25,751 bases of DNA from a virus, in the IMG/VR virus record IMGVR_UViG_3300007344_000210, positions 1-25,751 of that record. One strand, given 5' to 3'. The notes beneath the pieces were generated by a model. It saw nothing but the letters and a program-made list of their open reading frames with translations. It was not told the origin of the DNA and made no database searches. Positions within the stretch are counted from its first letter, which is position 1; every line of letters begins with the position of its first letter. Positions 6,221 through 25,751 of the stretch are shown piece by piece. The position numbers and the translations under genes are program-made.

Positions 6221-6222
6221 TT

Positions 6223-7512: not shown

Positions 7513-7523
7513 ATGATATTTTT

Positions 7524-7556: not shown

Positions 7557-7567
7557 TACTATATTGA

Positions 7568-8104: not shown

Positions 8105-8111
8105 AATTTTA

Positions 8112-8129
8112 TTTTTAAACGTTTAAAAA
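8112..8129. repeat. 18-base perfect palindrome upstream of the tail tube gene
   Basis: The sequence TTTTTAAACGTTTAAAAA is its own reverse complement. It lies between the terminator after the capsid gene and the ATG at 8104, and shares its outer T run with that terminator. It could bind a dimeric protein, or could simply be a by-product of the A/T-rich leader and the T tract. Confidence 0.5.
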
Positions 8130-8152
8130 AAAGGGGAGCGATTGACTCCCCC
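8125..8152 (-). terminator. Terminator-like hairpin after the major capsid gene
   Basis: The minus strand carries GGGGAG (8151-8146), a seven-base loop region and CTCCCC (8138-8133), followed at once by eight T residues (8132-8125). This is a canonical intrinsic terminator. It lies 7 bases after the capsid stop codon and about 20 bases before the next start, so some read-through, or an undetected promoter, is needed to express the tube and portal genes. Confidence 0.85.
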
Positions 8153-8158
8153 GTTTTA

Positions 8159-9163: not shown

Positions 9164-9194
9164 TGTTGTTAAATTTAATAGTTATTAATAATGT

Positions 9195-9566
9195 TTACTT
9201 TCTTAATTTAGCTGCGTAACCATCGAATGCGTTAGGCTCTTCTGCCTTTGGCTCTTCAGTAGGATCAGTATCTTCTGCTTTAGCAGTCTCAACTTTAGTT
9301 GCACCTAATTTCTCGATTTCGTTCTTTAATTTTTCCACTTCCTCTCCTAAGTTCTTGATTTCATCATCCTTAGTTTTGATAGTGTCATCCTTCTCGTTAA
9401 TCATCCACTCATAAGCGTTTGTTACCTCAGTCTTAGAGTCATTAACTAACTTCTCAGCTTCCTCACGTGTAACTGTGTTCTCAGCCTCTTTTGTACCACC
9501 AAAAACTTCATCTAATTTGTTTGTTAAGTTCTCGATAGCTAATTCAATTTTGCTCTTCTCAGCCAT
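9195..9566 (-). CDS. Possible nested scaffold protein from an internal start
   Basis: Codon 212 of the protease gene is an ATG (9566) that begins MAEKSKIELAIENL, exactly where the protease domain has ended and the coiled-coil scaffold begins. The bases upstream (AAAACAATTTAACT) resemble the A/T-rich leaders of true starts here, and an M-A start is shared by many genes of this window. Translation from it would give 123 residues of free scaffold, analogous to lambda Nu3 nested in gene C. This is inference from position and context. Confidence 0.5.
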   Translation of the reverse strand: MAEKSKIELAIENLTNKLDEVFGGTKEAENTVTREEAEKLVNDSKTEVTNAYEWMINEKDDTIKTKDDEIKNLGEEVEKLKNEIEKLGATKVETAKAEDTDPTEEPKAEEPNAFDGYAAKLRK

Positions 9567-10199
9567 AGTTAAATTGTTTTCAAATTGTTTTAAATAATTA
9601 GTAACGTCTGGAAGGTTTCTACCCTCTACGTTATTTAAGATAACACCCATCTCTGCTCTATTCATAATTGAATCTGCATCAACGATCTTATCTACGAAGC
9701 CTTTCGACTTTGCCTCTTTAGAGTCCATCCATCTATCTTCCATCATTAGATCTCTGATAAACTTTTCTGATCGACCCGTTTTCTTCATATATATGTTTAC
9801 TATGATATTATCAATCTTCTCTAGATTCTTAATATCCTCTTCTAAATCTTCCTTAGTTCCACCCGTCATTCCAAACCTTGCATTATGCACTAAGAATAAA
9901 GCATTCTCGCTCATGTGAATTTTATCTGCACCCATAGAGATAATGGTAGCTGCACTAGCTGTTAATCCAGTTACTCTAGCAGTAACTCTACCATTGAATG
10001 ATCTTAAGAAATCGTGAATTTGTAACGCCTCGTTAACCGAACCGCCTAAAGAAGATACATTTAACTTAAGTTCAGAAGCACCTGACTCCTTCACTTCATT
10101 AATAAAAGCCTCTGCTGTTACCCCGAAAAAACCAATATCTCCCACGATATCAATCTCGGCAGCTGTACCTTTATTATTTAAAATATACCATCTATCCAT
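9195..10199 (-). CDS. ClpP-family head maturation protease fused to a scaffold domain
   Basis: A 334-residue protein. Residues 1-175 are an S14 (ClpP-like) serine protease: the substrate-cradle phrase NVSSLGGSVNEAL (47-59), nucleophile Ser82 in TGLTASAATI, His105 in LFLVHNA, and probable Asp159 in DRWMDSKEA. Residues about 212-334 are a highly charged, coiled-coil-rich region (repeated E/K/D heptads), then a Glu/Pro/Lys-rich stretch and a short C-terminal tail (NAFDGYAAKLRK), as in scaffolds that bind the capsid shell. It would guide shell assembly and then cleave scaffold or capsid. Its gene lies directly upstream of the capsid gene. Confidence 0.9.
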   Translation of the reverse strand: MDRWYILNNKGTAAEIDIVGDIGFFGVTAEAFINEVKESGASELKLNVSSLGGSVNEALQIHDFLRSFNGRVTARVTGLTASAATIISMGADKIHMSENALFLVHNARFGMTGGTKEDLEEDIKNLEKIDNIIVNIYMKKTGRSEKFIRDLMMEDRWMDSKEAKSKGFVDKIVDADSIMNRAEMGVILNNVEGRNLPDVTNYLKQFENNLTMAEKSKIELAIENLTNKLDEVFGGTKEAENTVTREEAEKLVNDSKTEVTNAYEWMINEKDDTIKTKDDEIKNLGEEVEKLKNEIEKLGATKVETAKAEDTDPTEEPKAEEPNAFDGYAAKLRK

Positions 10200-10243
10200 A
10201 AAGACAAGTATATAAATAATAACGTTTGGTTGTTTTTTATTTA

Positions 10244-10552
10244 TTACTCGTTTTTAACATATCTCTTATTGAGTATGTTTGTTATGTGATTATTGATGAT
10301 GTGATAGATTCGATTCTCACTAATACCATACCTCTCCTCATTTGCTATACAGAAGTTACGCTTATTATCATCTTGATTATAGTACTCAGTAACTATCATG
10401 TGATTACGTAACCTTGATGTAGGTATTAACCCTCTCTTTACTAGAGTATTTAATAGCTTATAAATCTCCTCTGTGTTATCTATCTTAGACTCCTCGCATA
10501 TAACATCTATGAAGTCATCTAGTAAGCCTACGCTTATTGGTTTGTCAGCCAT
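10244..10552 (-). CDS. Small protein with a possible helix-turn-helix (102 aa)
   Basis: A 102-residue protein beginning MADKPISVGLLDDFIDVICE. Residues about 68-92 (FCIANEERYGISENRIYHII) look like a helix-turn-helix, with ERYGIS as the first helix and turn and ENRIYHIINN as the recognition helix. This weakly recalls the C-terminal part of Mor/Martha-type activators. Its ATG lies inside the last codons of the previous gene, a 19-base overlap that implies translational coupling. It sits between the tape-measure block and the head protease, so it could regulate late head genes or be an assembly factor. Family not identified. Confidence 0.65.
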   Translation of the reverse strand: MADKPISVGLLDDFIDVICEESKIDNTEEIYKLLNTLVKRGLIPTSRLRNHMIVTEYYNQDDNKRNFCIANEERYGISENRIYHIINNHITNILNKRYVKNE

Positions 10553-10749
10553 TTATCTATATTGTTCTTGAAGTAATTATATACCTTACCTCTGTCTCTT
10601 GGACAAGTATAACATGGTTTATCTCTAGGGAACACCTTACCATATATATCGTATAATCTTCTCAGACTCTTTTCGTCTGGCCTAGAAGTGCTTTTAATAT
10701 TCCCTAAACACTCCTGGATCTCATCTAAGTATAAATTAATATCTACCAT
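10534..10749 (-). CDS. Small CxxC protein of unknown function (71 aa)
   Basis: I start it at the ATG at 10749 (MVDINLYLDEIQECLG), which overlaps the upstream stop as ATGGTAG. A GTG five codons earlier (10764) is possible but would deepen the overlap. The protein is helical and carries CYTCPRDRGKVYNYFKN near its C-terminus, a single C-x2-C pair plus one earlier Cys. It is translationally coupled to genes on both sides. Small CxxC proteins like this recur beside tape-measure genes of Bacteroidetes phages as far as I recall, but the role is unknown. Confidence 0.65.
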   Translation of the reverse strand: MVDINLYLDEIQECLGNIKSTSRPDEKSLRRLYDIYGKVFPRDKPCYTCPRDRGKVYNYFKNNIDKWLTNQ

Positions 10750-11012
10750 TTCCCCATTGGACACCTCTCGTAATATAAAGCAGTTTTCTTATCTAGAAAG
10801 CACTTACATATATCACACTGTGAATGATTCTTTACTTTAAATATCCCTATCTCGAAATCAATATTCATATGGATACAACTCTCACATTGATCTAACCTAT
10901 CAGTCTTTAACTCAGGAGAGGCTTTCTTTAATGTTAAGTAATATCTATAATCCTCTATCTTATTATAGAGTTGCTTCGCTTTGGATGTTATTGATTGAAA
11001 TAATTGCATCAT
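10743..11012 (-). CDS. Small zinc-ribbon-like protein (89 aa)
   Basis: An 89-residue protein. An amphipathic N-terminus (residues 1-30) is followed by cysteines C43-x2-C46, C66-x2-C69, C71 and C84 (CESC, CDICKC, RCPMGKW). Two CxxC knuckles about 20 residues apart fit a treble-clef or zinc-ribbon metal site. The terminal CPxGKW ending is a distinctive signature. The gene overlaps the tape-measure end by 50 bases in another frame, so it was retained as a dedicated overlapping gene. It may assist tail assembly or bind nucleic acid; neither is shown. The next codon, also ATG, is an equally good start. Confidence 0.7.
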   Translation of the reverse strand: MMQLFQSITSKAKQLYNKIEDYRYYLTLKKASPELKTDRLDQCESCIHMNIDFEIGIFKVKNHSQCDICKCFLDKKTALYYERCPMGKW

Positions 11013-13587
11013 TGGTGTCGCTTACTACGTTCTTAACTTTAATATCCTTAAACGCATCTTTAATCGCACTAATCTGAGATTCTACTCCGCTTAAGTCATT
11101 AGTAACGTTTACGTTACCACTAATCAAAGAGTTAGCATTAAACCCTGCTGGAACTAATCCACCATCTGCAAATTTCTTACCATTGCCTCCGAAACTATTG
11201 ATAGCACTTAGTATAGGCTTAAACATTGCTGTGGATCTTTTGTTGATAATAGCCTCTCCACCTTCTGCTTCCATAATCCTTCCACCAGCTGCAAACTTAA
11301 CTCCTCCATCTGCATGACTTGGTCCTGAGAATACACCTCCTTGTATTAATCCCCCTTGCTCAAACTTAGCATTTTTAACAGCCCCTTTAGCTGCTGCTAT
11401 AGCTGCATTAATTAACCCTCCTAAAACCGCTGCTCTAGTAATACCAGTAGCACCAAACGTAGCAACAGAGTCAGGTTGTGCTATCGCTTGTGCTGTAGCA
11501 GCTGCCACTTGTATGTTAGCTAATTGTTGTAGAGCATTTAACCCTAATAATAGAGTCTCTTTTAAGAATGATCTATTCTTCTTATCTTGATCTGTAAGGA
11601 AGTCTCCAAAAGCAGAACCTACACTAGCAACAGTATCTACTAATACCTGCTCTTGCTTCTTTTGTATCTTCTCTTGTTCTTTGGCAGCATCTTCAGCACT
11701 CTTTACTAACTCCTTGTCTAAGTCTTTCTTAGTATCTACGAAATCTTGTTCTGCTGTTTTACGATCTCTTATTATCTCCAGTAATCTACCCTCTATGATC
11801 TCTGATAGTTCTAAGTTTCTGATCTTCTCATTAAGTACAGTAGCATCTGATTCTTTTATTAACTCATCAGCTTCAATCTTTTGTCCTGCGAACTCCTCTA
11901 TAATACCTATTTGTCTATCAAAAGACTCTTGACCTAATCTCTCAGTCTCTTCTAGTAATGCTCTCCTCTCTTCCTGAGTCTTAGTTTCATCAGCTATAAT
12001 TCTCTCGTTTATTGTTTTCTGATTATCGAATCCATCAATTAATATGTCTAAATCTCTCTCTAACCTATCTTGTCTTAATTCATTTCTAGTTCTCTCGTTA
12101 TCTCTGATAGTTAGGGTAAGTTGATTCTCTGCTTCTACTACTTTCAATCTAGCTTCTACTTGTTGATCTAATAACTCATCTGTTACTAGATTATTCTCCT
12201 CTGCTTCCTTAAGTCTCTGATCCGCTAACTCGCTTTCCATCCTAGCTAACTTCAATTGCTGCTCCGCTAACTCCTCTGCCTTAACTCGGAACTGTTCCGC
12301 TGCTTCTTCTCTAGCTTTGAATGATAATGTAGTATCATCCGCTGTAGCCTGTAATAGATCCTTCTGCTTTTGTAACTCAGCGTTAGATAGTTGTGTTTCT
12401 CTAGTAAGATTCTTGATGTTAATCTCTAACTCTTTTAATCTTACACCTTTATCAGCTGCTTCTACTATATCATTACCTAGATTAACAAAACTCTCTGCAA
12501 TCGCATTCTGTTGCTCTACATCTAACCCAGTTTGAAACTGAATAAATGCTTGACCTAGATCACCTACAGCTGACTTAGCCGCTGCAAAATCCCCTTCAAA
12601 TAAGTTACCCATAACATCAGCCAGGATACCACCAGCATTGATAATAGCCTTGAATCTATTAACGATGTTATTAACTAACAACTCTCCGAAAGATATTAAT
12701 GATTCTTTTGGATTCTCAAACACTCCAACAATAGCCTCTCCTAATGTTGCTGCTCTACCTACTAACACATTAAACACCGCAGTTACTCCAGCCGTAGCCT
12801 TAGATAATAACTCTGCACCTTTCTTAGTCTTTGTAAGGAAGGTAAATAAAGATCCTAAAGCAACCACTACCGCACCGATACCAGTAGACACTAACGCTAC
12901 TCGTAACGCTTTAAGTCCTCCGATCATTCCTCTTAAACCTCTACCACTCTTAATGAAACCTTTATTAGCATCATCTGTAGCCTCACTAAAGTTTACAAAG
13001 TTATTTGTAGTATTATCAATAGCAGTATTAACCTGAGTGATAACATTCTTAGTAACATTAAATACATTAGTTACCGTTTGTAGCTGACCTGACATTAAAG
13101 AAGTGGACTCGAAAGCCTCTTTCATGCTATCCGCATAGTTACCTACATTTCTGAAGTTATCACCTAACTCCTTATCAAAGGCTTTTAACTGTTCTGTATT
13201 AGCAGCGATCTGAGTCTTTAATTTATTAGCTTCCTCGTTAGTCTCATCGAATGCGTTAGGTAATGCTCTTAACTGAGCCTTTAATTCTCTAGTCTCCGCA
13301 GTTAACTGATCGTAAGAACCATTCAAACCATTAGCAGCTTTAACACCATCGTTAAATTGTTTCTTCAGTTTAGCTTGTTCTTTAGATACTTGTGAAGTCT
13401 CTTGCTTAACATTTGCTAATCCTCTTGCTAATTGCTCCTCTGAGATAGTACCATCTTTTGCTGCCGCTTGAAGATCTTTTCTCCTCTTAGCTAATCTCAA
13501 TAACTCTTTTTCTAAAGCTACAATCTCATTAGATAACTTATCAGTTCCTAAAGCCTCAATCTTAAAACTTATCTTTCTATCTGCCAT
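10963..13587 (-). CDS. Tail tape measure protein
   Basis: An 874-residue protein. Residues 1-160 are coiled coil with heptads (IVALEKELLRLAKRRKDL). A hydrophobic, probably membrane-inserting segment lies at about 229-252 (within RVALVSTGIGAVVVALGSLF). A second, very long coiled coil runs over about 390-660. An Ala-rich helical region (about 700-750) follows, and the C-terminus carries the Gly-rich beta repeat typical of phage tape measures (FEQGGLIQGGVFSGPSHADG, then KFADGG). Tape measures set tail length, sit inside the tube and help DNA cross the inner membrane. No lytic transglycosylase or peptidase motif is evident. The gene is 9 bases after the large tail-tip gene. Length points to a medium-length siphovirus tail. 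Confidence 0.88.
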   Translation of the reverse strand: MADRKISFKIEALGTDKLSNEIVALEKELLRLAKRRKDLQAAAKDGTISEEQLARGLANVKQETSQVSKEQAKLKKQFNDGVKAANGLNGSYDQLTAETRELKAQLRALPNAFDETNEEANKLKTQIAANTEQLKAFDKELGDNFRNVGNYADSMKEAFESTSLMSGQLQTVTNVFNVTKNVITQVNTAIDNTTNNFVNFSEATDDANKGFIKSGRGLRGMIGGLKALRVALVSTGIGAVVVALGSLFTFLTKTKKGAELLSKATAGVTAVFNVLVGRAATLGEAIVGVFENPKESLISFGELLVNNIVNRFKAIINAGGILADVMGNLFEGDFAAAKSAVGDLGQAFIQFQTGLDVEQQNAIAESFVNLGNDIVEAADKGVRLKELEINIKNLTRETQLSNAELQKQKDLLQATADDTTLSFKAREEAAEQFRVKAEELAEQQLKLARMESELADQRLKEAEENNLVTDELLDQQVEARLKVVEAENQLTLTIRDNERTRNELRQDRLERDLDILIDGFDNQKTINERIIADETKTQEERRALLEETERLGQESFDRQIGIIEEFAGQKIEADELIKESDATVLNEKIRNLELSEIIEGRLLEIIRDRKTAEQDFVDTKKDLDKELVKSAEDAAKEQEKIQKKQEQVLVDTVASVGSAFGDFLTDQDKKNRSFLKETLLLGLNALQQLANIQVAAATAQAIAQPDSVATFGATGITRAAVLGGLINAAIAAAKGAVKNAKFEQGGLIQGGVFSGPSHADGGVKFAAGGRIMEAEGGEAIINKRSTAMFKPILSAINSFGGNGKKFADGGLVPAGFNANSLISGNVNVTNDLSGVESQISAIKDAFKDIKVKNVVSDTNDAIISINNIQSEATL

Positions 13588-13596
13588 GTTTATTTG

Positions 13597-16362
13597 TTAA
13601 TCATCACTTAAATATACTTTTTCAATACCATCACGCGTTTCTGTGTATACTGGTACTATATCTCCGTTTGTATTCTCCATAAAGACCTCACCACCATAAA
13701 ACTTAGTTTTACCACTTCTATCTATGGTCATCACATTGGATCTATTACTTGAGCTAGTACCCGAACCTATTATTAACTGAGCATCTGGTTTCTCTTTGTT
13801 CCATCTACCTAATGTAGTCTGCTTATCCCCTACAGCACGACCTCCGAACCCTAAATTTAAAGATCCTGCTCCTGGCTTAACATATCCACCACCTCCAGTT
13901 TTAACATCAAACGACTCAGCACCTCTAGATCTAGCATCGTACTTAATCTCTATAGGCTCTTGTGGATCATCACCTATATTCCATACATTATCCGCATAAT
14001 CATCTATATCTTCAAGATCTGCAATAATATCACTGTTTCTATCTTTCTTATCTCCTCTCGTGAACCCTCCAGTAAATCCATCAGAGTAAATGTCTTTATC
14101 TTTATTCCCATCTTTACTAGAGAACCCCTCAGCTTCAGCTACGTTTTTAGCTGTAGTTACTTTTTTCCCAGTCTTTATAGTTTTAAGTAATTCAACCTTA
14201 GTAGTACCTCTCCTAGTTGGTTGGTAATCACTCACATTATTTATGTAATAATACCCAGCTATTTCAGTAGGTGCAGATATATGTATAGGTTTGGATAAAT
14301 CTAAAGCGTTAATATCTTCAAACGTTAAATCAAATCTAGCAGTTAGCATAACTCCTTCATCAATCACACCTAATTCTCCTTGATAATAATTCTCTATTAA
14401 TCCAGTAGTACCCTCAAATCCTAAATTATAACCAGTAGTTGATGTCTCTGCAAAATTCTCTTGAAAATAACCTGTAGGAATCTGAGTCTTACTTGATCCG
14501 TTAAACTTCCATCCAATATTACTCCCTCCTGAATCTAATTGAGTCTTATAATCATAATATAGTATTCTTGGAGCGAATTGGTAACTCGGAGTAGATGCTT
14601 CTCCTTCATATCCGACACTATTCCATAATGCAGGTAATATGTTCTTCTGATCTATTGATACACCTATACCACTCTGATTAATATCCATCCTTTGATGAAT
14701 AGTAGGAGAGAAGAAAGGATTAACTATACCTGTAACCCCTTCAGGAAATCTAGCACTTAGGTTAATTTCTCCTGCACCCAAATCTACTACTCTAGTCTTA
14801 TTAAATTTATCTACTAACTTATCGCCACTATCATCTTTATATTTATTATTAAGAATCCTCTTAAAGTTATCTATGAATTTAACTACATAGCCTGCTCCTA
14901 AATCCATCTTACTAGTCCAATCTATTGCATTAGTTGTATTCTGATAGAAATCATCTCTTGGCTCTATTGTGATAGTTTTAGTTATCTCGTTTGTGCTAAC
15001 ATATAAGTTAAACATATGAGCCAATCCCTTAAAGAAAGTACCCATCTTCATATCGGGTAATGTATCAGATATGTCTATAGATTGATTAAGCACAACCTGA
15101 GTAGATTTAGTTACATTTATCTGAGGTTGTTGTATCTTCATGAATTGAGTACCTGATATATAATTACCATCATTATCTCTAATATCTAATAGTATCATAT
15201 AAACGAATAACTCATCACCTTGATTAAGTGTTATATCATCCAAGTTTATCTTAATATTTACCCAGTTCCGATTAGGGAATGAAGCATCTACTCTGTGTAG
15301 TACATTAGTATTAGTAGTAGTATTAGGTCTAGCCGCAATCACAAAAGCGATGTCTTTAAAACTATCAATCTGACCTTGTGCTGATATTGGTGCAACTTGA
15401 CATGAGAAATCTAAACTAACTACACAGCTATTATCAGCATAATATATAGAGTTATTCTCATCCCAATAGTTACCACTTACAGCAGTTTGATCGTTACCAG
15501 TTACTACCTCCTGAATTTTTACTCTTTGCCTTGTTCCGTTTGTAGTTACTGCAGTATTTACGTAATAAGATGTACTAAACTCATACTCTTCTATATCACT
15601 ATCTCTAGCTTCAATATCTTCTGACTCATCTTTATTCACATCACTAGTCATTAATCCACTAGAGAAAGGCATAAATAGACGCTTAAAAAACGTACCGTCT
15701 AAAAAAGTTGAAGATATACTGTAATTTATATCTTCTGTTGAGTTAATCTGATCCCATGCTTTATCTAATATACTCTTAATCCATACAGCAGGTCTAAGAT
15801 CATCACTAGTTACTTCGTTGTTAGGGAACGTACCATAAGATATAATTGGATATAAATAATCTCTATCATCTGCATCAGCTGGATTACCATATTGATCAGT
15901 CCAACTAGCTTCGATAGTCGAATCATTATAAGTGTGAACCGCTGTACTAAAATCCAAATCTCGTAACTCGATATCTCTAAACTTTGAGATCCAGTTATAA
16001 TTGTCTCCAAAAACAACACACTCATATTCTATAAATCCGTTAGTGTTAATTACATTTCTTACTTTAAAGGTACCTTTCAATATAGGCATTGAGTTAACTA
16101 GAATCTCGCATCTATTAAAGTTCTTAACTCCCGAAGTATCATCAATACTAGAGTAATAAATGTTCTGAAGGTTCTTATTATTATCCTTAGTAGCAGGTAT
16201 CCTAAAAGCCTTTGAGAATGTTGATCGAGTACTAATAATATCTCTAACTTCACTAATACCATAATTAAGTGACAAAGGGAAATCCTCGTGATCCTGGAGA
16301 TCCAACTCAAAACCTGCATTAGTATCCTCATCTGTTATTACTCTTATTGTTACACTTATCAT
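13597..16362 (-). CDS. Large tail-tip / baseplate protein (921 aa)
   Basis: A 921-residue protein. The N-terminal segment (LNYGISEVRDIISTRSTFSK, then AFRIPATKDNNKN) is a signature I associate with large tail-tip proteins of Bacteroidetes phages. A long beta-rich middle follows. Near 740-790 is a charged Lys/Asp linker (GNKDKDIYSDGFTGGFTRGD), and the C-terminal 100 residues contain GRAVGDKQTTLGRWN and LIIGSGTSSSNRSNVMTI, which resemble fibre/YadA-head-like or intramolecular-chaperone-linked repeats. Placed just before the tape measure and one base after another tail gene, it probably forms the hub or tip that contacts the host. The exact role (hub versus distal tail) is unresolved. Confidence 0.72.
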   Translation of the reverse strand: MISVTIRVITDEDTNAGFELDLQDHEDFPLSLNYGISEVRDIISTRSTFSKAFRIPATKDNNKNLQNIYYSSIDDTSGVKNFNRCEILVNSMPILKGTFKVRNVINTNGFIEYECVVFGDNYNWISKFRDIELRDLDFSTAVHTYNDSTIEASWTDQYGNPADADDRDYLYPIISYGTFPNNEVTSDDLRPAVWIKSILDKAWDQINSTEDINYSISSTFLDGTFFKRLFMPFSSGLMTSDVNKDESEDIEARDSDIEEYEFSTSYYVNTAVTTNGTRQRVKIQEVVTGNDQTAVSGNYWDENNSIYYADNSCVVSLDFSCQVAPISAQGQIDSFKDIAFVIAARPNTTTNTNVLHRVDASFPNRNWVNIKINLDDITLNQGDELFVYMILLDIRDNDGNYISGTQFMKIQQPQINVTKSTQVVLNQSIDISDTLPDMKMGTFFKGLAHMFNLYVSTNEITKTITIEPRDDFYQNTTNAIDWTSKMDLGAGYVVKFIDNFKRILNNKYKDDSGDKLVDKFNKTRVVDLGAGEINLSARFPEGVTGIVNPFFSPTIHQRMDINQSGIGVSIDQKNILPALWNSVGYEGEASTPSYQFAPRILYYDYKTQLDSGGSNIGWKFNGSSKTQIPTGYFQENFAETSTTGYNLGFEGTTGLIENYYQGELGVIDEGVMLTARFDLTFEDINALDLSKPIHISAPTEIAGYYYINNVSDYQPTRRGTTKVELLKTIKTGKKVTTAKNVAEAEGFSSKDGNKDKDIYSDGFTGGFTRGDKKDRNSDIIADLEDIDDYADNVWNIGDDPQEPIEIKYDARSRGAESFDVKTGGGGYVKPGAGSLNLGFGGRAVGDKQTTLGRWNKEKPDAQLIIGSGTSSSNRSNVMTIDRSGKTKFYGGEVFMENTNGDIVPVYTETRDGIEKVYLSDD

Positions 16363-16363
16363 A

Positions 16364-17620
16364 CTATGATCTTTGTCTATTGTTGTGAGTTAATTCATAA
16401 GTTATCTTCATAGTAACTAATCCACTTGCCTTGTCCTCAGTTACCGCTTTAGAGTCTCTAATAATCACTGGGAAGTAATCACCATTCCTAACTACATACA
16501 CCTCAGGAGAAGTTATCAACTCCTCTAACCATAATAATTCATCCTCTTTTATTAGTCCGCTATGAGCAGTATATGAGATCCCTTTTCTATTACCTATTGT
16601 CGGAGTTAAATTAGTGGTTTGATCTGATTGTCTACCTAATGTTCTCTGCATCCTGGTTCTCTCAAATTTACTTGAAGCAGTCCTAACCTTAGCACCTTTG
16701 AAGTTAAATGAGTCGTAAAACCCAAACTGATTCATGAAGAAGAACCTCTCATAAGTCTCATCACAATCATCATCTAACCAAAATTGATAAGTGCCACTAT
16801 TCTCACTACCTACCGATCCAGTACCTGCGTAAGATATTGTGTAGTATGCAGCATTTGAAGGTAAAGCACTAGGATAATCAGCTAATACATTAGCAGCACC
16901 TACTCCATGCTGAAAAGCGTAAGGAGTACCACTTGCTGTATATAAGCTAACAGGTAAATCTATAGATATCGCTGTACCTGTAGCATCATAGACTCTCAGT
17001 TGATAAGTTATAGATGTGTCATTGTTTTCATTCCTAAAATGGCCCATAAAAGCACTATCTCCACGTCTAAGCCATTGCTTGTTAGGTGCATTAGATCTCT
17101 TAAATCCTTTAACTACACCGTCATTATTAGTAGATCCTATTACTCCATCTCCTAACTGGTAATCATCATAAGCTGCATTACAACATACAATCTTATTACT
17201 AGATCCCATATCTTCCAATGCAGTCTCTATTAAATCCCCGTTACCATTTTCGTAAATCTCCCTAATTCTTAATCTTAATGTTACAGCTACATTACCATCA
17301 GTAGTAACTGTATCAGATCCTTGTCCTATAGCAACTAACTTACCTTCTACATAGTTCCTCATAAAAGGTGCTGCATCAAACGTGAAATCTACATTACTAC
17401 CTAGATCGGGATCAATAATAATAGGAGAACCTACTTGAGCACCAGTTACTAACATCTCAATCTTACATCTCCTTGTAGTTCTCGAAGATGATTGAGCAAC
17501 TGTATTACTAATGTTGAATACAATCGGTCTATACACCGAATGATACTCATTAGATACATCATCCTTTACTGGATATGTAATATCCCAACTACTTAAACTT
17601 ACTGTACTCTCTAAAGCCAT
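16364..17620 (-). CDS. Tail protein, probable distal tail / baseplate component (418 aa)
   Basis: A 418-residue beta-rich protein. Notable segments are VYRPIVFNISNTVAQSSSRT near the N-terminus, a central jelly-roll-like region (residues about 190-290), and ERFFFMNQFGFYDSFNFKGA followed by TRMQRTLGRQSDQTTN toward the C-terminus. The phrase xxxNQFGxYDSFNFxG is one I recall in minor tail proteins of Bacteroidetes phages. Its ATG shares a base with the upstream stop, so it is coupled to the tail completion gene, and the large tip gene follows with a one-base gap. Likely part of the baseplate or tail tip. Confidence 0.7.
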   Translation of the reverse strand: MALESTVSLSSWDITYPVKDDVSNEYHSVYRPIVFNISNTVAQSSSRTTRRCKIEMLVTGAQVGSPIIIDPDLGSNVDFTFDAAPFMRNYVEGKLVAIGQGSDTVTTDGNVAVTLRLRIREIYENGNGDLIETALEDMGSSNKIVCCNAAYDDYQLGDGVIGSTNNDGVVKGFKRSNAPNKQWLRRGDSAFMGHFRNENNDTSITYQLRVYDATGTAISIDLPVSLYTASGTPYAFQHGVGAANVLADYPSALPSNAAYYTISYAGTGSVGSENSGTYQFWLDDDCDETYERFFFMNQFGFYDSFNFKGAKVRTASSKFERTRMQRTLGRQSDQTTNLTPTIGNRKGISYTAHSGLIKEDELLWLEELITSPEVYVVRNGDYFPVIIRDSKAVTEDKASGLVTMKITYELTHNNRQRS

Positions 17621-18132
17621 TATTTTAATTGTTTATCTACTCCTCTAATAATATTTGCTAAAACAACTTCCATTTCATTAAAGAAAGCATCATCAAAAGC
17701 CTTACGTATCTTATCCTCATTCTGCTCTAGCACATACTCTATCCACTCTCTTCTTCTTCCATTATTACTATACTTGAAAGATCCGAATGTAGGAGATCCT
17801 TCCTTAAATATTTTAGTCTGAATTGCGTAAGCTATTGATCTAATCTCTTTCTCTTCATTAGCTATACCTCTCTGCTCTACCCATGTCTCTAAAGCCTCTA
17901 GAGGAATCCTTTTGCCTCCAGGTCTCCTACCATTGTTTAGATAAACACCATAATCTAGAGTACTACCCTCTAATACAATACTAAACGCTTCTTCTCTGAT
18001 AACTACTCTAATACTTTCTAAAAGAGTACCAGTATTCTTATGCCCTTGACCTATTAATTCCTGAGCCATATCATTACTTAAATCATCAGCTAACTTCTCT
18101 AATATGTCTCTAGTGGTTTTAGATAACTCCAT
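17620..18132 (-). CDS. HK97 gp10-like tail completion / neck protein
   Basis: A 170-residue protein with the landmarks of the HK97 gp10 / minor tail completion family: an N-terminal helix, NTGTLLESIRVVI (SxR after TG-x-L), then DYGVYLNNGRRPGGKRIPLE (the Y-x-x-x-x-NxG-x-xPG region), then ALETWVEQRGI and a closing helix. These proteins join tail to head or complete the tail. Its start overlaps the stop of a 39-codon gene as TAATG, and its own stop overlaps the next start. The motif match is by recall but covers several separated blocks. Confidence 0.75.
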   Translation of the reverse strand: MELSKTTRDILEKLADDLSNDMAQELIGQGHKNTGTLLESIRVVIREEAFSIVLEGSTLDYGVYLNNGRRPGGKRIPLEALETWVEQRGIANEEKEIRSIAYAIQTKIFKEGSPTFGSFKYSNNGRRREWIEYVLEQNEDKIRKAFDDAFFNEMEVVLANIIRGVDKQLK

Positions 18133-18255: not shown

Positions 18256-18735
18256 TTAGTAGCTAAACGTTCCTTCATCACAATCGTTAAAAGTTGTTAC
18301 TACAGCAGTTACTTCGATCCCAATTAACCCATCATTACCTATAACCTCTATAAAATTCGCTACAATCTCTTCTTGAATCCACCACTCTTGTGGAGTAGTT
18401 ACCTCTGTAGTTTGTCCATGAGAACGTTTCTTAAACTCCTTCACAAATTGATCGACCAAGTTTTCAAGATCTTTCTGTTTTTCATCGTATGATTTACTCC
18501 CTTGTTCGGTAATATCATAAGTATCATATATGCCAAAAGTAACGGGATACGTCTTAAACTTCTTCTCATGTGCTGGGTAAGTTACAGAAGGTTGTTTAGT
18601 AAGGATAAAGATTGGCTTTGCACTCGATCTATTTACGTTAATATCGGATTGCTTACCTAATACAAATGTGCTGATACCAGTTTGAGCCTCAGCGATTGTT
18701 TGCATTTCTGTTTTGATGTCGGAAATATCAGCCAT
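18256..18735 (-). CDS. Probable tail terminator / head-tail joining protein (159 aa)
   Basis: A 159-residue alpha/beta protein beginning MADISDIKTEMQTIAEAQTG. The middle (PVTFGIYDTYDITEQGSKSY, then a helix QKDLENLVDQFVKEFKKRSH) and the closing strands (GLIGIEVTAVVTTFNDCDE) resemble small tail-terminator-type folds that cap the tube. The call rests on size, fold pattern and its place just upstream of the gp10-like gene. It begins a tail block after the acyltransferase gene, separated by 47 bases in which I see no clear terminator. Confidence 0.5.
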   Translation of the reverse strand: MADISDIKTEMQTIAEAQTGISTFVLGKQSDINVNRSSAKPIFILTKQPSVTYPAHEKKFKTYPVTFGIYDTYDITEQGSKSYDEKQKDLENLVDQFVKEFKKRSHGQTTEVTTPQEWWIQEEIVANFIEVIGNDGLIGIEVTAVVTTFNDCDEGTFSY

Positions 18736-18782: not shown

Positions 18783-19448
18783 TTATTTTATCATTTCAGT
18801 AAGCACCTTATCATAGTTCTTTATGAAGTTAGCCATATTATTAGCATACTCGTTCTCCATGTAGTTCCCCGATAATTTCAATGTCATATTTAGATTTTCT
18901 TGGAGATTAGATATCTTATCTGTGTCTAGTCCAGCTCTCTCCATACCTCTCTGATTGATCCCCATAATCTTTGCTGGAGATCCAGCGATAGTTAAGTAAG
19001 GTGGAACGTTCTTAGTTATTACGCTACCCATACCTACCATAACACCGTTACCTATTTCTAATCTTTGGTGTATTATCGCACCAAGTCCTAAGTTAACGCT
19101 CTTACCTATCTTACAATAACCACCGATTAAAGACCCAGTAGAGATAGTAGTATTATCCTCTATTATAACATCATGAGCAATGTGGCTCTTATTCATTATG
19201 TAGCAATCTTCTCCGATGTATGTAGCATTACCCTCTATACTTATCTGGATAGTACATTGCTCTCTAATAACCGTATTCTTACCTATGATAACATTACCAT
19301 TCTTCTCTCCTTCCCTTCTGAACTCTCCTCTAGTACCTACTACAGTGAATGCTCCTATTTCTGCACCTGCATGGACTGTTATGTTAGTTGTAGGATCTAA
19401 ATAAGCTAATGGATGAATCTTTGCTGTTGGATGGATTATGTGCATCAT
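18783..19448 (-). CDS. LpxA-like acyltransferase (left-handed beta-helix)
   Basis: A 221-residue protein with hexapeptide repeats from residue 5 to about 160 (IHPTAKIHPLAYLD, GAEIGAFTVVG, YIGEDCYIMN). Key LpxA landmarks are present: NTVIREQCTI (58-67), KSHIAHD with His89 and catalytic-type His92 (E. coli His125), AIIHQ with His127 (E. coli His144), KNVPPYLTIAGSPAK (146-160) and the family-specific ending INQRGMERAGLD (164-175). LpxA moves a hydroxyacyl chain from ACP to UDP-GlcNAc, the first lipid A step. It is about 40 residues shorter than the usual 262, one or more N-terminal coils being absent. Its ATG overlaps the glycosyltransferase stop as ATGA. Sugar acylation is likely; true lipid A activity is not proven. 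Confidence 0.85.
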   Translation of the reverse strand: MMHIIHPTAKIHPLAYLDPTTNITVHAGAEIGAFTVVGTRGEFRREGEKNGNVIIGKNTVIREQCTIQISIEGNATYIGEDCYIMNKSHIAHDVIIEDNTTISTGSLIGGYCKIGKSVNLGLGAIIHQRLEIGNGVMVGMGSVITKNVPPYLTIAGSPAKIMGINQRGMERAGLDTDKISNLQENLNMTLKLSGNYMENEYANNMANFIKNYDKVLTEMIK

Positions 19449-20107
19449 ACGTCTTTCTTTTTACCTAGTCCACCGTTATTACCGCAGCGAACCAATACTT
19501 TGTCTATAAATTTTGTTTCTATTACATTTTGATATAATCGGTTAATTACTCTGAAATCGGAGCATTTCCAACAATCCCATTTAGCATACTCTAACCATTT
19601 TACATGAAAGAACATACAACTACCTCCTATGTTACATATCTTAGGTGGCTTACCGTACATCTTATCGTTAGGGATAACCATACCATTCTCCAATTCAAAC
19701 CTACCTAATACTAATACATCTTCAGGTTGTACAACCAAACTACTATCTGCTTTAGCTACTAAGCTACTAATAACATCATCAGAAGCCATCATGTCATCAT
19801 CATCTACCCCAAAGAAGTAACCCTCATCCATTAACTTATAAGCCTCGTTTATGTACCAATTATAAACGAAGAAATCTCCAGTCATAGGATCGGGATCTAG
19901 ATCTCTTAGAGCCATCTCTATCTTATCTATCGGAAGCAGTACAAGATCATCGTACTCTTTTAAGTACTCTAGAGTCTCTTCATCATCATAAGATACTATA
20001 TGTCTTATGTTAGGATAATCCTGAGCCTTAACGGACTCGTAGCATTTACGAAATCCGTTAGGTCTGCCAGATGTTCTAGTGAATATGTTAACTAACGGCT
20101 GCTTCAT
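19445..20107 (-). CDS. Family-2-like glycosyltransferase (220 aa)
   Basis: A GT-A-type enzyme. The N-terminus VNIFTRTSGRPNGFRKCYES is the family-2 opening (TRTxxRPxxFxxCxxS), followed by QDYPNIRHIVSYDDEE, and the metal/nucleotide site GVDDDDMM has its Asp run at 102-105. The protein ends in a short cysteine- and lysine-containing tail (CGNNGGLGKKKDV). The likely reaction is transfer of a sugar from a nucleotide-sugar donor; acceptor unknown. It overlaps the upstream coiled-coil gene by 20 bases and the LpxA-like gene by 4, so the three are translated together. Confidence 0.82.
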   Translation of the reverse strand: MKQPLVNIFTRTSGRPNGFRKCYESVKAQDYPNIRHIVSYDDEETLEYLKEYDDLVLLPIDKIEMALRDLDPDPMTGDFFVYNWYINEAYKLMDEGYFFGVDDDDMMASDDVISSLVAKADSSLVVQPEDVLVLGRFELENGMVIPNDKMYGKPPKICNIGGSCMFFHVKWLEYAKWDCWKCSDFRVINRLYQNVIETKFIDKVLVRCGNNGGLGKKKDV

Positions 20108-20522
20108 AGTGTTGCTTCATTCCAGCTACAGTTCTATATCCTTGTATTAAGTGAGCCATCCCTTCCCATGTACCATTGTTATAATGATTCTTAATTGCTC
20201 TGAACATCTTCTTGTGATTCTTCTCCATATGCCCCTCTAACTTCTTTGTCTCATTCAACAATTCAGTAAAGTGTTCCGTTGCATAATCGAACTCTTTCTG
20301 CTGCTTCTCTTTCTCGTTCTCTAATAAAGGTAATAACTTATCCCTATACGCAGTCTTTTCTCTGATCTCTACCTTTAGCTTATGGATATCGATCTTATTA
20401 TCAATAGCCTTTAAAGGATCTGCTTTGTAATTTAAATTAGATAGGATAGTTAGCTTATTGCTTAATAATCCAATTAACTCGTTATAATCTGTTACTTTTT
20501 GTTCGATGTCTACTCTATTCAT
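20088..20522 (-). CDS. Coiled-coil protein of unknown function (144 aa)
   Basis: A 144-residue, almost entirely helical protein with heptads through most of its length (KLKVEIREKTAYRDKLLPLL, KEKQQKEFDYATEHFTELLN). The C-terminus is less charged (WEGMAHLIQGYRTVAGMKQH). It has no cysteine cluster, signal peptide or membrane span. It starts after ACAATAAAATTACAAC and lies between two glycosyltransferases, overlapping the second. It could scaffold or oligomerise the sugar enzymes, or be an unrelated virion protein. Family not recognised. Confidence 0.7.
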   Translation of the reverse strand: MNRVDIEQKVTDYNELIGLLSNKLTILSNLNYKADPLKAIDNKIDIHKLKVEIREKTAYRDKLLPLLENEKEKQQKEFDYATEHFTELLNETKKLEGHMEKNHKKMFRAIKNHYNNGTWEGMAHLIQGYRTVAGMKQHYEAAVS

Positions 20523-20531
20523 GTTGTAATT

Positions 20532-21254
20532 TTATTGTAATATAAAGTCGTTATGTTTATTCCAATCACTCCATTTATGCTCACATATCACACTTGTATC
20601 CATGAAAGCTGGAATCTGATTATCTTGTAAATCTTTGTAAAAATATGTATCAGAGAATACGCTCTCATTCATTGAGTACTCTCCCCCCTTTTTAGCACTT
20701 CTGAAGTTGATGTAATTGAATACTTGCATATCAATCAACGTACATCCGATACCGCAGCTAAACACCTTATGTAGTTCTCCATCCCATCTATTAAATACGC
20801 TCTCCCCACTTAGTAACATACTCTGCTTACTGATATACGTAGGCTCAATCTCCTGGACACATACCGTAGGATGATTATCTCTGTAGTTAATAAAGTAAGG
20901 TGCTGTTACTACTGGTCTCTCATGCGTTAACAAGTACTCTATAATATTCAGCGGAGGAAATACATCGCTCTCACACATAAATACATAGTCGTACTTCATC
21001 CCTTTAGCGTACTCTATGAGGATCTGCTGAGAATGGCTAATATACTCCACTACGTGACCTTTAGGCTCTAAGTGGTAGCAGTTAATACCTTTCTCTATAA
21101 ATTCCTTAACATAGTACTCAGGATCTTCTGAGTTATCGCAAATAAAGATGTCGTAATTAGTGTATGTAAGAGATTGAATATGCTTAAGCCATTCGTCTTT
21201 ACAATAGTGTTTCTTATCACTCGTAGGTGCTATTAATAATACTCTAGGATTCAT
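20532..21254 (-). CDS. Glycosyltransferase-like protein with a GT-A fold (240 aa)
   Basis: A 240-residue protein. It opens MNPRVLLIAPTSDKKHYCKD, followed by a Rossmann-like strand and helix (YTNYDIFICDNSED). The DxD-type site is YVFMCESDVFPP with E-S-D at 95-97, and the protein closes with VICEHKWSDW near 222-231, where His226 could bind the metal. The ATG overlaps the end of the -1 frame of the chaperone gene by 11 bases. The presumed donor is a nucleotide sugar; the acceptor could be a virion protein, a host polysaccharide or phage DNA. Specificity cannot be read from the sequence. Confidence 0.75.
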   Translation of the reverse strand: MNPRVLLIAPTSDKKHYCKDEWLKHIQSLTYTNYDIFICDNSEDPEYYVKEFIEKGINCYHLEPKGHVVEYISHSQQILIEYAKGMKYDYVFMCESDVFPPLNIIEYLLTHERPVVTAPYFINYRDNHPTVCVQEIEPTYISKQSMLLSGESVFNRWDGELHKVFSCGIGCTLIDMQVFNYINFRSAKKGGEYSMNESVFSDTYFYKDLQDNQIPAFMDTSVICEHKWSDWNKHNDFILQ

Positions 21255-21474
21255 CTGTTAAATCTCTTTTATAACTACAATACGCTAAGACTTGGTAGAA
21301 GTTTTGGTTAAGGATTCTGTCAATTTGGTAAATTTCTCCATTAATTGCTGTGTATATAGTATTGTACCATCCCCAGTGGCTAAGGTCTTTTCCAGTCCCT
21401 TTGCTAGAGCCTCCCGTATCTTTTCCGAATAGCTGTGGATATTGGCTTGAAACGTACTGCTCAAATCGGACAAA
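21244..21474 (-). CDS. -1 frame extension of the tail assembly chaperone
   Basis: After the T run at 21480-21472 the -1 frame stays open for 76 codons to a stop at 21244. It encodes a plausible conserved domain (DLSHWGWYNTIYTAINGEIY, then QIDRILNQNFYQVLAYCSYK), which resembles C-terminal parts of phage tail chaperones. Its codons (GGA, AAA, ATT, TAC) fit the neighbours better than the competing 0 frame. A ribosome slipping back one base would make a 281-residue protein (205 residues from the first frame plus 76). Its end overlaps the next gene start by 11 bases. An independent ATG at 21492 is possible but less likely. Confidence 0.7.
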   Translation of the reverse strand, partial: FVRFEQYVSSQYPQLFGKDTGGSSKGTGKDLSHWGWYNTIYTAINGEIYQIDRILNQNFYQVLAYCSYKRDLTDES

Positions 21475-22088
21475 AAAAAACTGATCTGCCATACAGTATC
21501 CATAGTAAGATCTTTAACATCTTCTAACCTGGAGAAGCATCTCTCCTCATCGAAATCCTCGCCTTTAGGTCTATATATAATAGCAATCTGCTTAGAGATC
21601 ATATCGAATTTATTAACGCCTTTATTGGTTGATAAGGTTGATAATTGTAAGTACTCTACTCCTTCATTGAATGTTAGCTTACCTAATGGTATATTATTAC
21701 CATGTATGTCTACTAATCTATCTGCTGGATAACATAGCTGCTCACCTACTTTAATCTCTAGTGGTGGCTCTCCTTTTGTTGGAGGATTTAGGAAGTTATG
21801 TGATATGATATTATAACAACCTACTATAACATCAAAATCTACTTGTGATAACTCCCTATCGTTTAATTCTGTCCAGAAGGAAACTATCTGAAGGATATAC
21901 TCAGGGTATCTAGTACAAATAAACTCTAATGTAGGTTCTTGATCTTCTTCTAACATACCATCTAGCTTGGTAGATAGTACATCAAATAGATCGTAAAAAG
22001 AGATGAATCTCCTAAGTGTTACCTCACTCCAGTCAGAAGGGATAAGTATAGGAGAATCATGCTCATCTACTAACGGCAAACTAATCAT
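21285..22088 (-). CDS. Probable tail assembly chaperone, 0-frame product (267 aa)
   Basis: A 267-residue protein opening MISLPLVDEHDSPILIPSDW and SEVTLRRFISFYDLFDVL, an N-terminal pattern (P-x-D-W-x-x-V-T-L) I associate with tail-chaperone-like proteins of Bacteroidetes phages. The role is to hold the tape measure soluble while the tube forms. Codons 203-205 contain a slippery T run, after which the 0 frame continues for 62 codons in a rather different style (more TCG, CGG, CTG and GGG codons). Its ATG shares a base with the preceding stop (TAATG). About 7.6 kb separates it from the tape measure, whereas such genes are usually adjacent. Confidence 0.65.
   Translation of the reverse strand: MISLPLVDEHDSPILIPSDWSEVTLRRFISFYDLFDVLSTKLDGMLEEDQEPTLEFICTRYPEYILQIVSFWTELNDRELSQVDFDVIVGCYNIISHNFLNPPTKGEPPLEIKVGEQLCYPADRLVDIHGNNIPLGKLTFNEGVEYLQLSTLSTNKGVNKFDMISKQIAIIYRPKGEDFDEERCFSRLEDVKDLTMDTVWQISFFLSDLSSTFQANIHSYSEKIREALAKGLEKTLATGDGTILYTQQLMEKFTKLTESLTKTSTKS
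21474..21480 (-). promoter_or_regulatory. Programmed -1 ribosomal frameshift site (T TTT TTT)
   Basis: The minus strand has nine T residues (21480-21472). In the 267-codon frame the first T is the third base of codon 203 and the next two codons are TTT TTT, so the register is exactly X-XXY-YYZ with T at every slip position. Slipping one base back joins the long open -1 frame. No convincing downstream pseudoknot was found by eye. A homopolymer sequencing error is the main alternative. Confidence 0.7.
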
Positions 22089-23867: not shown

Positions 23868-25025
23868 TTACCCAAAAGCACGAACTTTTTGCTTACTTCC
23901 CCCAATTTTATTTAACGCTACATATCTGATCGCATCTATACCATGATTGAAGGTATCTATTGGTTGGTTAAGGTAGTTACCATCCTTATCTTGTTTCCAT
24001 TGGTAATGTCTGAACTCATCCAGGAGATTAAGACTATCCTTTGTTATATTGATCTTATATCTTTTAAGGATATCTAAGCCATTTAAAATAGAGTCCTTAC
24101 CTTTCTTAGCTGGTTTAACATTGAATCCCATACGCTTGATCTCTACGATGGATTTAGGCTCAGCTGAATCTGCTACTATCTCATCATATCTATCTAAGCC
24201 TATTCTCTTTAATTTCTCTCCTATATCCTGGTTAGTTAATCCTGTCTCAAAAACTAATTCCTTTAGCCATAACTCTCCACTAGCTAGAGAAACACTAATT
24301 AGAGTAGTCGGATCGTTAGTAAATCCGAAATCCATACCGTAATAAGTCCACTTGACATCCTCAGGTATATCATCACATACATCAAAGTTACTAAAGACTG
24401 TACCTTCTAATGCCCCAACTTCACCCAAACCATAAACACGCCACCAATTAAGGTCTGTAAACTCTCTTGCTTCGATAGATTTAATGATCTGTTCATCTAG
24501 GCAATCATTATCTTTATACGTTGATTTAATGAAAGCTACGTTATCCTGGAGCAGTACCTTCTCATGCACCCAAAAGTTTGCCACTGGATTAAAGTCTAAA
24601 AACACCTTTAGCTTGGTCCTTACCTCTAGCTGGTTGTAAGTTTCGTAACTCATGTTGTTACACTCATTCATGTACAGTATATCCCTCCTAGCACCTCTTA
24701 ACTTAGCATCATTATCTGCTGAGAAGAACTCTATACTACTTATTCCTACTTGGTAAGTATTATCTGTTTTATTGTGTTTATCCCTTTCGTATATCTCATT
24801 GCTCTTAAGGATATTGAAGAAGTCACGCATCGCACCCCTCTTTAAGTGAGGCATAGACTCAGATACTACAGATATTAGTAATGGCTTCTTACTATTTGCT
24901 GCGATTGTGTACAGTAATTGCAGTATGCTATACGTCTTAGAGGAAGATGTCCCGCCTTGATTAACGACAATACGCTTACCTTTACCTTCTTTTATATTTT
25001 TTTTATAGACGTTTGTAAACTTCAT
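23868..25025 (-). CDS. terL: Large terminase subunit (PBSX-type)
   Basis: A 385-residue protein. The ATPase part has Walker A GGTSSSKT (24-31), Walker B DILYMNE (115-121, Glu121 catalytic) and a DFNP coupling motif (144-147). The nuclease part (RNase H fold) has Asp232 in YYGMDFGF, Asp286 in EIVADSAEP and Asp364 in FNHGIDAIRY, the three metal ligands. Layout and length match PBSX/SPP1-type terminases, which cut and pump phage DNA into the procapsid through the portal. The start is the ATG at 25025, preceded by GAAAAATAATTT. The small subunit is not recognised in this window. The gene is followed by a strong terminator and is far from its portal partner. Confidence 0.92.
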   Translation of the reverse strand: MKFTNVYKKNIKEGKGKRIVVNQGGTSSSKTYSILQLLYTIAANSKKPLLISVVSESMPHLKRGAMRDFFNILKSNEIYERDKHNKTDNTYQVGISSIEFFSADNDAKLRGARRDILYMNECNNMSYETYNQLEVRTKLKVFLDFNPVANFWVHEKVLLQDNVAFIKSTYKDNDCLDEQIIKSIEAREFTDLNWWRVYGLGEVGALEGTVFSNFDVCDDIPEDVKWTYYGMDFGFTNDPTTLISVSLASGELWLKELVFETGLTNQDIGEKLKRIGLDRYDEIVADSAEPKSIVEIKRMGFNVKPAKKGKDSILNGLDILKRYKINITKDSLNLLDEFRHYQWKQDKDGNYLNQPIDTFNHGIDAIRYVALNKIGGSKQKVRAFG

Positions 25026-25063: not shown

Positions 25064-25115
25064 AAAAGGGGATTTCTGTCAGATACTAGTAAAGCGGCAT
25101 TGATCTCCTTTTTTT
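25064..25115 (+). terminator. Possible bidirectional terminator between the synthetase-like gene and terminase
   Basis: A 10-bp stem (AAAAGGGGAT at 25064-25073 with ATCTCCTTTT at 25103-25112) encloses a 29-base loop. One G-T pair forms on the plus strand only, where the stem is followed by more T residues. On the minus strand the outer stem has one mismatch and ends in TTTT. A large loop makes it weak. It could end transcripts reading in either direction. Confidence 0.35.
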
Positions 25116-25751
25116 ATTCCCTTAAGTTTTCTATACAGTGTTTAGCCCATTCATCATTAGTGAAGTGAGGATTGCTAAAACCTTTCTTCTTACCAGCTAT
25201 AACATCTGGATGTAGACCGCTTATATCTTTAAGGATTCTCTTATTCTCTAAATACTCGTCAGGTAATGATAGAGCAAAATCTACTAAGTCGTTATCTAAT
25301 AAAGGATATCTAGTCTCCATAGTATGCCATCCACTCATACGATCTTCTACCACTAATACAGCTTTTAAGAATCTCCAATCATACTCCTTATGTGTAAGCC
25401 AATAGTTCTCTATCCTATCCTTACGTGAAGTCCTCTTAACTACATCGTTAATATTCTTATCGTATCTGTGAGTATATCCGTTGAATACCTCATCTCCTCC
25501 AGCACCTGAGTAGTTTACTAGAGCGTAATTACTAGCCATCTCTGTTATAGCATAGTTAGTATAGCAACTACCTGCTTTTAAGTCATCTAGTGCATCTAAT
25601 GTTAGTTGTGAGTAATTCTCCACAAGATTATCATTACAGATAATAGTATAATGATTGCCATAGCTATTATGTTTTATGTTTTCAATTTCTGATAAGTTCT
25701 CATCCTGGTAATCTACAGAGAAACTATATTGTGGTTTGATCCATTGTGCTA
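25114..25751 (-). CDS. Asparagine-synthetase-like protein, C-terminal domain (partial at the window edge)
   Basis: The frame is open from the window edge to TAA at 25114, so the GTG at 25623 is not its start. Translation of the edge region adds a stretch including YSFSVDYQDENLSEIENI, as expected before the active-site region of AsnB. The C-terminal landmarks are YSGAGGDEVFNGYTHRYD (AsnB SGxGxDExxxGY), METRYPLLDNDLVDFALSLP (MExRxPxLD), KRILKDI (K-x-I-L) and GKKKGFSNPHF (K-x-G-F). AsnB amidates aspartate using ATP; phage or cluster homologues may amidate other acids, including sugars. The glutaminase half is outside the window. It lies just upstream of the terminase, and not beside the glycosyltransferases. 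Confidence 0.85.
   Translation of the reverse strand, partial: AQWIKPQYSFSVDYQDENLSEIENIKHNSYGNHYTIICNDNLVENYSQLTLDALDDLKAGSCYTNYAITEMASNYALVNYSGAGGDEVFNGYTHRYDKNINDVVKRTSRKDRIENYWLTHKEYDWRFLKAVLVVEDRMSGWHTMETRYPLLDNDLVDFALSLPDEYLENKRILKDISGLHPDVIAGKKKGFSNPHFTNDEWAKHCIENLRE

Follow-up and report, generated by a model that had tools for sequence, protein, structure and literature searches.

Results

The virus record IMGVR_UViG_3300007344_000210 of IMG/VR (25,751 bases, analysed over its whole length and called the window below) carries within its tail operon a cassette of four genes, encoding two putative glycosyltransferases (GT1 and GT2), a coiled-coil-type helical protein and a predicted acyltransferase of the LpxA superfamily. 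With about as much confidence as doubt, we propose that this cassette is a phage glycan-decoration module, through which an acylated and probably amidated sugar would be attached in the cytoplasm, most likely to virion proteins. The evidence comes from the conservation of the cassette as an insertion in the tail operon, from the affinities of the acyltransferase, and from the recurrence of LpxA-like genes next to genes for AsnB-like amidotransferases and glycosyltransferases in other phages. Nearly all loci compared here are metagenomic fragments.

A conserved four-gene insertion in the tail operon

Re-reading of the open reading frames (ORFs) returned the coupled block at positions 18783-21254 that the initial annotation had described, with the correct coordinates and with overlaps of 20 bases between the coiled-coil gene and GT2 (20088-20107) and of 4 bases between GT2 and the acyltransferase gene (19445-19448). 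GT1 is separated from the coiled-coil gene by a gap of 9 bases and overlaps the extension ORF of the preceding chaperone gene by 11 bases (21244-21254). The neighbours, a chaperone gene on one side and a tail-terminator-like gene on the other, were likewise as described. All four genes were found in identical order and at the identical place in two further viral lineages, L003 (IMG/VR 3300034418_005037, with the near-identical pieces L002 and L004) and L006 (3300044724_004841). Compared with the window, GT1 was 54-58% identical (58% in L003 and 54% in L006), the coiled-coil protein 28-33%, GT2 57-59% and the LpxA-like protein 47-50%. Since order and place are conserved in two other viral lineages, the four ORFs are not a product of chance. 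One additional small gene (67-74 aa) follows GT1 in L003 and L006 and is missing from the window. The G+C content of the cassette (0.362) is close to that of the window (0.356) and offers no hint that the block arrived recently from a foreign source.

The surroundings of the cassette were surveyed in 80 contigs collected via their terminase, in which the chaperone and gp10-like genes were located by purpose-built profiles. Both landmarks were present in 50 rows from 48 different contigs, among which there were near-copies. The interval between the two genes measured at most 1.16 kb in 45 contigs, and 3.15-3.43 kb only in the window, L003 and L006. The cassette is thus a lineage-specific insertion that brings an added function rather than a part of the tail; that such enzymes are not needed to build a tail, as the initial annotation had put it, is borne out by these relatives, which have the same tail and no cassette. 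The interval between the chaperone and terminator genes takes up cargo and may be a general cargo spot. In the human-gut contig L017, the genes at the chaperone, terminator and gp10 positions are directly consecutive. In Bacteroides phage BC679P1 (L015), a 778-aa solenoid-like protein (18849-21185) is encoded where the window has the cassette, between the chaperone-position and terminator-position genes.

A predicted acyltransferase of the LpxA superfamily

The acyltransferase (ACYLTRANSFERASE) gave a Hexapep match of 72 bits, a strong family assignment. Its top NCBIfam matches are LpxA, as are nearly all of its top matches in the PDB, and the HIAHD motif with the catalytic histidine (H125 in E. 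coli LpxA) is kept in the window, L003 and L006. Its scores against the LpxA equivalogs TIGR01852 and NF003657 (140.7 and 144.7 bits) nevertheless fall below the respective cut-offs of 231 and 226, and its match to PF13720, the C-terminal domain of LpxA (34.7 bits, cut-off 24.5), is confined to profile positions 2-45 of 82. Compared to E. coli LpxA, the protein is shorter and has lost N-terminal coils. Alignment of the two showed H122, H125, H160 and N198 to be retained, whereas the 69-76 loop is absent and five residues are changed (H144 to Y/W, G173 to M, H191 to P, E200 to R/I, and R205 to A/M/L). We take the loop, H144, H191, E200 and R205 to be substrate features of the E. coli enzyme, and G173 to be its chain-length ruler.

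In trees built from 34 LpxA proteins, mostly from Bacteroidota genomes, together with the phage LpxA-like proteins and PDB 8e62 (the row for which was copied from the printed PDB-search alignment), the acyltransferase clustered with the proteins of phage contigs L003, L006, L099, L100 and L146 and with 8e62, its nearest solved relative, apart from LpxA (support 99/95). Forcing the window trio (with L003 and L006) into the LpxA clade was disfavoured, though not rejected, by the approximately unbiased (AU) test (p = 0.063). An AlphaFold model of the acyltransferase computed from a three-row alignment was poor (predicted local distance difference test, pLDDT, 65) and retrieved mostly right-handed solenoids with Foldseek (E > 0.7); we judged this model failed, and it is no evidence against a left-handed beta-helix fold. 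By sequence, the protein shares with LpxA the hexapeptide repeats and the catalytic-His motif, and differs from it in its separate clade, shorter length and changed substrate residues; we therefore place it in the LpxA superfamily, as a predicted enzyme other than LpxA. The scores below the cut-offs, the lost coils and substrate residues and the separate phage clade together make lipid A synthesis by this protein unlikely, and the LpxA function contemplated in the initial annotation found no support. LpxA itself is a UDP-N-acetylglucosamine (UDP-GlcNAc) O-acyltransferase. Family knowledge makes acyl transfer to a sugar nucleotide the likely activity of the phage protein.

Several GenBank records labelled as phage and matching LpxA were excluded as phage relatives, the neighbouring genes, as read from sequence, looking like bacterial DNA: Pseudomonas phage Y1 (FabZ- and LpxB-like neighbours), MT835680 (GlyA- and LpxB-like), MT836264 (LpxD- and LpxC-like) and MT836779 (efflux-type). 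The GenBank records behind L147, L148, L149 and L151 are phage-labelled, with LpxA in a bacterial housekeeping context, and are likely host DNA.

Candidate glycosyltransferases and the helical protein

GT2 scored 21 bits against PF00535, below the cut-off of 23.3, and a homologue in L008 that is 37% identical to it scored 32.1 bits, above the cut-off; the DDDD motif was invariant in an alignment of four relatives. These results point to a family-2-like glycosyltransferase. GT1 also carries a motif, ESDV, that is invariant among aligned relatives. Its AlphaFold model is of low confidence (mean pLDDT 52) and weak in the C-terminal half; Foldseek aligned the N-terminal half with GT-A enzymes, SpsA among them (prob 1.00, E 1.7e-6), and it is by this fold match that GT1 may be called a GT-A-like glycosyltransferase. 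PDB sequence searches with GT1 and GT2 profiles yielded no usable match, nor did GT1 match anything in 296 Bacteroidota genomes, in a search run without a positive control. The 144-aa coiled-coil-type protein had no convincing family match in profile searches and may be an accessory or scaffold. Of the composition proposed in the initial annotation (two glycosyltransferases, a coiled coil and an LpxA-like protein), the acyltransferase family is thus firm, GT2 is a weak assignment and GT1 one by fold match only. Homologues of GT2 with ~30% identity were also seen within 584-822 aa proteins of the viral contigs L009, L010 and L011, which reach up to 296 kb.

No membrane segment was found in any cassette protein by a hydrophobicity scan (KD19 of at least 1.6) that did detect a holin-like control.

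An AsnB-like amidotransferase recurs with LpxA-like and glycosyltransferase genes

The right end of the window, outside the block singled out in the initial annotation, encodes part of an AsnB-like amidotransferase, the N-terminal half of which lies beyond the contig end. This part is 61% identical to the AsnB-like protein of L003 and 60-63% identical to those of L146, L153 and L154. The full-length L003 protein matches both PF13537 (glutaminase, 54 bits) and PF00733 (Asn_synthase, 97 bits); against TIGR03108, AsnB-like proteins scored 91 and 123 bits, under the cut-off of 817. In L003, a family-2 glycosyltransferase gene upstream of the terminase (150-860, 32.7 bits) is coupled to the AsnB-like gene (841-2190).

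A search for AsnB-like homologues led to three more phage backbones, namely L146 (with a GpA-type terminase and a tail sheath), L153 (endolysin and replication genes) and L154 (tail sheath and GpA-like terminase). An LpxA-like gene was present in four of the four AsnB-bearing viral lineages, adjacent to the AsnB-like gene in L146, L153 and L154 and across the terminase from it in the L003 lineage, with homologous glycosyltransferases at 42-52% identity. The LpxA-like proteins of L146, L153 and L154 share 36-42% identity with their window and L003 counterparts. All three contigs also have an upstream glycosyltransferase 43-52% identical to that of L003 and another glycosyltransferase-like gene downstream, and in L100 an LpxA-like gene lies amid glycosyltransferase-type genes. 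The combination of AsnB-like, LpxA-like and glycosyltransferase genes thus appears to be a recurring phage module, to which pathway the AsnB-like fragment of the window probably belongs together with the cassette. Of all the evidence, this repeated occurrence across backbones argues most strongly that the substrate of the LpxA-like enzyme is a sugar bound for a glycosyltransferase. The initial annotation had raised the possibility of a decoration pathway using acylated sugars; the association seen in three other backbones strengthens that suggestion, the product of the pathway being presumptive.

Related gene sets were noted elsewhere. Contig L099 has UDP-sugar dehydratase-like, DegT/PseC-like aminotransferase, LpxA-like and glycosyltransferase-type genes clustered at 5913-10388, which would make an apparent amino-sugar acylation pathway. 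A sulfotransferase-like protein, read from sequence, is encoded in L154 between the glycosyltransferase and AsnB-like genes of the module (6373-7014), and in L101 a sulfotransferase-like gene, also read from sequence, adjoins that of a hexapeptide protein.

Organization of the window

The record is classed as linear without end repeats, and is therefore probably a fragment. The cassette and its relevant neighbours (Table 1) all lie on the minus strand and are transcribed from high to low coordinates, in the order AsnB-like fragment, terminase, small genes, chaperone, GT1, coiled coil, GT2, LpxA-like, tail-terminator-like and gp10/Neck1-like, after which come two large genes and the genes for the tape measure, head protease, capsid-type and portal proteins and the tail spike. 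Within 6223-16362 (minus strand), tail genes are transcribed ahead of head genes, opposite to the usual order, with the tape measure at 10963-13587, the protease at 9195-10199 and the portal at 6223-7512. The portal is closest to that of a Nonlabens phage; with the Bacteroides phage relatives of the terminase, this makes a Bacteroidota host likely. The tail gene at 16364-17620, used as sole query, retrieved zero relatives.

Table 1 Features of the cassette and its surroundings in the window
Feature	Position	Strand	Basis or remark
AsnB-like glutamine-dependent amidotransferase, C-terminal part	25114-25751	-	PF00733 70 bits; truncated by contig end
Terminase large subunit	23868-25025	-	landmark; nearest named relatives Bacteroides phages, ~43-44% identity
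Tail-assembly chaperone (G-type)	21285-22088	-	position after terminase and conservation; upstream flank of cassette
Chaperone -1 frame extension ORF (T-type)	21244-21492	-	43-44% identity in relatives
GT1 (putative glycosyltransferase 1), 240 aa	20532-21254	-	GT-A-like nucleotide-sugar fold, ESDV motif
Coiled-coil-type helical protein, 144 aa	20088-20522	-	conserved position in relatives
GT2 (putative glycosyltransferase 2), 220 aa	19445-20107	-	GT2-like, DDDD (DxD-type) motif
Predicted LpxA-superfamily acyltransferase, 221 aa	18783-19448	-	hexapeptide repeats; not LpxA
Tail-terminator-like gene	18256-18735	-	46-49% identical in L003/L006; survey position; downstream flank of cassette
HK97-gp10/Neck1-like tail-completion gene	17620-18132	-	phrog_5 E 2.5e-8; survey landmark

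The names chaperone and tail-terminator rest on position and conservation rather than on a family match: the chaperone matched no named family in profile searches, and a profile built from it picks out an equivalently placed gene in most contigs of the survey. A T9 slippery run at 21472-21480 is kept in L003 and L006, and the chaperone gene and its overlapping -1 ORF probably represent a programmed -1 frameshift of the gpG/gpGT type; the second ORF may alternatively be expressed from an internal start at its own ATG.

Discussion

In the mechanism that we propose for the cassette, the LpxA-like enzyme would acylate a host-derived nucleotide sugar, perhaps on an amino group, and a carboxylate, for example that of a uronic acid, would be converted to an amide by the AsnB-like enzyme, as by WbpS in Porphyromonas. 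Late in expression, the small soluble glycosyltransferases would then transfer this sugar within the cytoplasm, with capsid or tail proteins as the most likely acceptors, and the resulting glycosylated virion could evade binding proteins or tune adsorption. Virion proteins are our first-choice target, given that the cassette has the same orientation as the late tail genes, overlaps with them and appears to encode cytoplasmic proteins; the lack of membrane segments fits cytoplasmic targets such as assembling virions. A bolder version, in which a mobile module of AsnB-like, LpxA-like and glycosyltransferase genes makes a bespoke acylated sugar amide on virion proteins and was independently acquired across terminase and tail types, is one that we hold only tentatively, with doubt prevailing. 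The initial annotation had listed both virion proteins and the host surface as possible sites of glycosylation or acylation, and either is upheld as a plausible role for a sugar-modifying cassette so embedded.

A number of observations weigh against decoration of the virion. Acceptor, donor and product are all hypothetical. Lipid-linked surface glycans, too, can be assembled by soluble glycosyltransferases of the cytoplasm, working at the inner-membrane face. Neither sugar-nucleotide dehydrogenase nor aminotransferase genes were seen in the window, so that a donor would have to be provided by the host or by genes outside the sequenced part. GT1 matched no sequence family in profile searches, which counts together with the low confidence of its model. 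By BLAST, the two glycosyltransferases of the window block are not homologous to those of L146, L153 and L154; homology to the latter is confined to the glycosyltransferase that L003 encodes upstream of its terminase. Finally, the module is flanked by lysis and replication genes in L153 and is inverted relative to the structural genes in L154; location in a tail operon is therefore not constant.

This placement of the module in L153 and L154, away from or inverted to structural genes, would suit the main rival reading, a modification of the host surface, by which an acylated or amidated sugar is put on O-antigen, capsule or another surface glycan and blocks superinfection, or re-adsorption to debris at release. 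Such a role is known from serotype-converting phages and is what has usually been proposed for the glycosyltransferases of marine phages (PMC3636060, PMC7029224, PMC11946311), and AsnB-like amidotransferases and sugar N-acyltransferases are enzymes of O-antigen and anionic lipopolysaccharide (A-LPS) synthesis in Bacteroidota and Pseudomonas (WbpS, WbpD; PMC7468200). We nonetheless consider it less likely here than decoration of the virion. The membrane parts of the gtrA/gtrB/oac type are absent, no cassette protein having a membrane segment, which makes a classical gtr/oac system unlikely; the window has no recognisable gene for a polyprenyl-phosphate transferase or a flippase; and from its place within the late tail operon the block would, on inferred timing, change the surface late.

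Two further readings call on particular substrates. Were the glycosyltransferases, acyltransferase and amidotransferase to decorate modified phage bases against restriction, the C5-cytosine-methylase-like protein encoded by the relative L103 (12208-12852, PF00145 34 bits) would find a place, and phage DNA glycosyltransferases are generally known to exist. However, no nucleotide hydroxymethylase was recognised among the ORFs read, the cassette of the window lineage lies among tail rather than DNA-metabolism genes, and six records gave no TET/JBP match, in searches whose controls were silent too; we deem DNA hypermodification very improbable. The faintest prospects belong to a rewiring of lipid A, in which the product of the LpxA-like gene would form the initial intermediate of lipid A or change the pattern of its acyl chains. 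What speaks for it is that the best NCBIfam and nearly all top PDB matches are LpxA and that the catalytic His is kept; this is set against scores of 141-145 bits where 226-231 are called for, the absent 69-76 loop, the changes at H144, G173, H191, E200 and R205, a position outside the LpxA clade (99/95, albeit with the AU p of 0.063 for forcing it inside), and neighbours that in all phage relatives are glycosyltransferase-type and not lpx genes.

Decoration of virion proteins has precedents. As reported in PMC11256854 and PMC10877033 from Freeman et al. 2023, mycobacteriophages Che8, Rita and Maravista have glycosylated capsids and tail tubes. Phage-encoded glycosyltransferases are involved there as they would be here, the targets in that case being capsid and tail-tube proteins; what the present phages, of Bacteroidota type, add are LpxA-like and AsnB-like enzymes, in a system whose virion glycans are predicted. 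In the cultured flavophage phi18:1 of Cellulophaga, a glycosyltransferase (gp41) is encoded in the structural module and conserved within the genus (PMC11946311). As in the window, the gene lies inside a virion gene block, but there it is a single glycosyltransferase of 407 aa, between head morphogenesis and prohead protease genes, with no acyltransferase or amidotransferase annotated next to it. The Wbp/Vim pathway of Porphyromonas, which serves A-LPS, includes the acetyltransferase WbpD and the AsnB-like amidotransferase WbpS, which forms a glucuronamide (PMC7468200). The phage set resembles this Bacteroidota pathway in combining what would be a sugar N-acyltransferase, an AsnB-like uronamide-forming enzyme and glycosyltransferases; it differs in that no WbpA, WbpB or WbpE is recognisable in the sequence at hand and that TIGR03108 scores are far below the cut-off. 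The Shigella gtrABC/oac cassettes (PMC3636060) are likewise phage-borne sugar and acyl modification genes, but their gtr genes lie by attP and act on O-antigen, whereas the cassette described here is without membrane proteins and in a tail operon.

Glycosylation genes borne by phages are thus already known, and the apparently new part is the recurring combination of LpxA-like, AsnB-like and glycosyltransferase genes; no description of a phage AsnB/LpxA-like module was found in the open-access literature searched. Where phages act on surface sugars, it is usually the removal of these sugars that is studied. If the proposed role is correct, the few known cases of glycosylated virions would extend to uncultured phages of Bacteroidota type, and the module would yield testable enzymes, a cousin of LpxA and a WbpS-like amidotransferase, for learning how phages disguise themselves or remodel their hosts.

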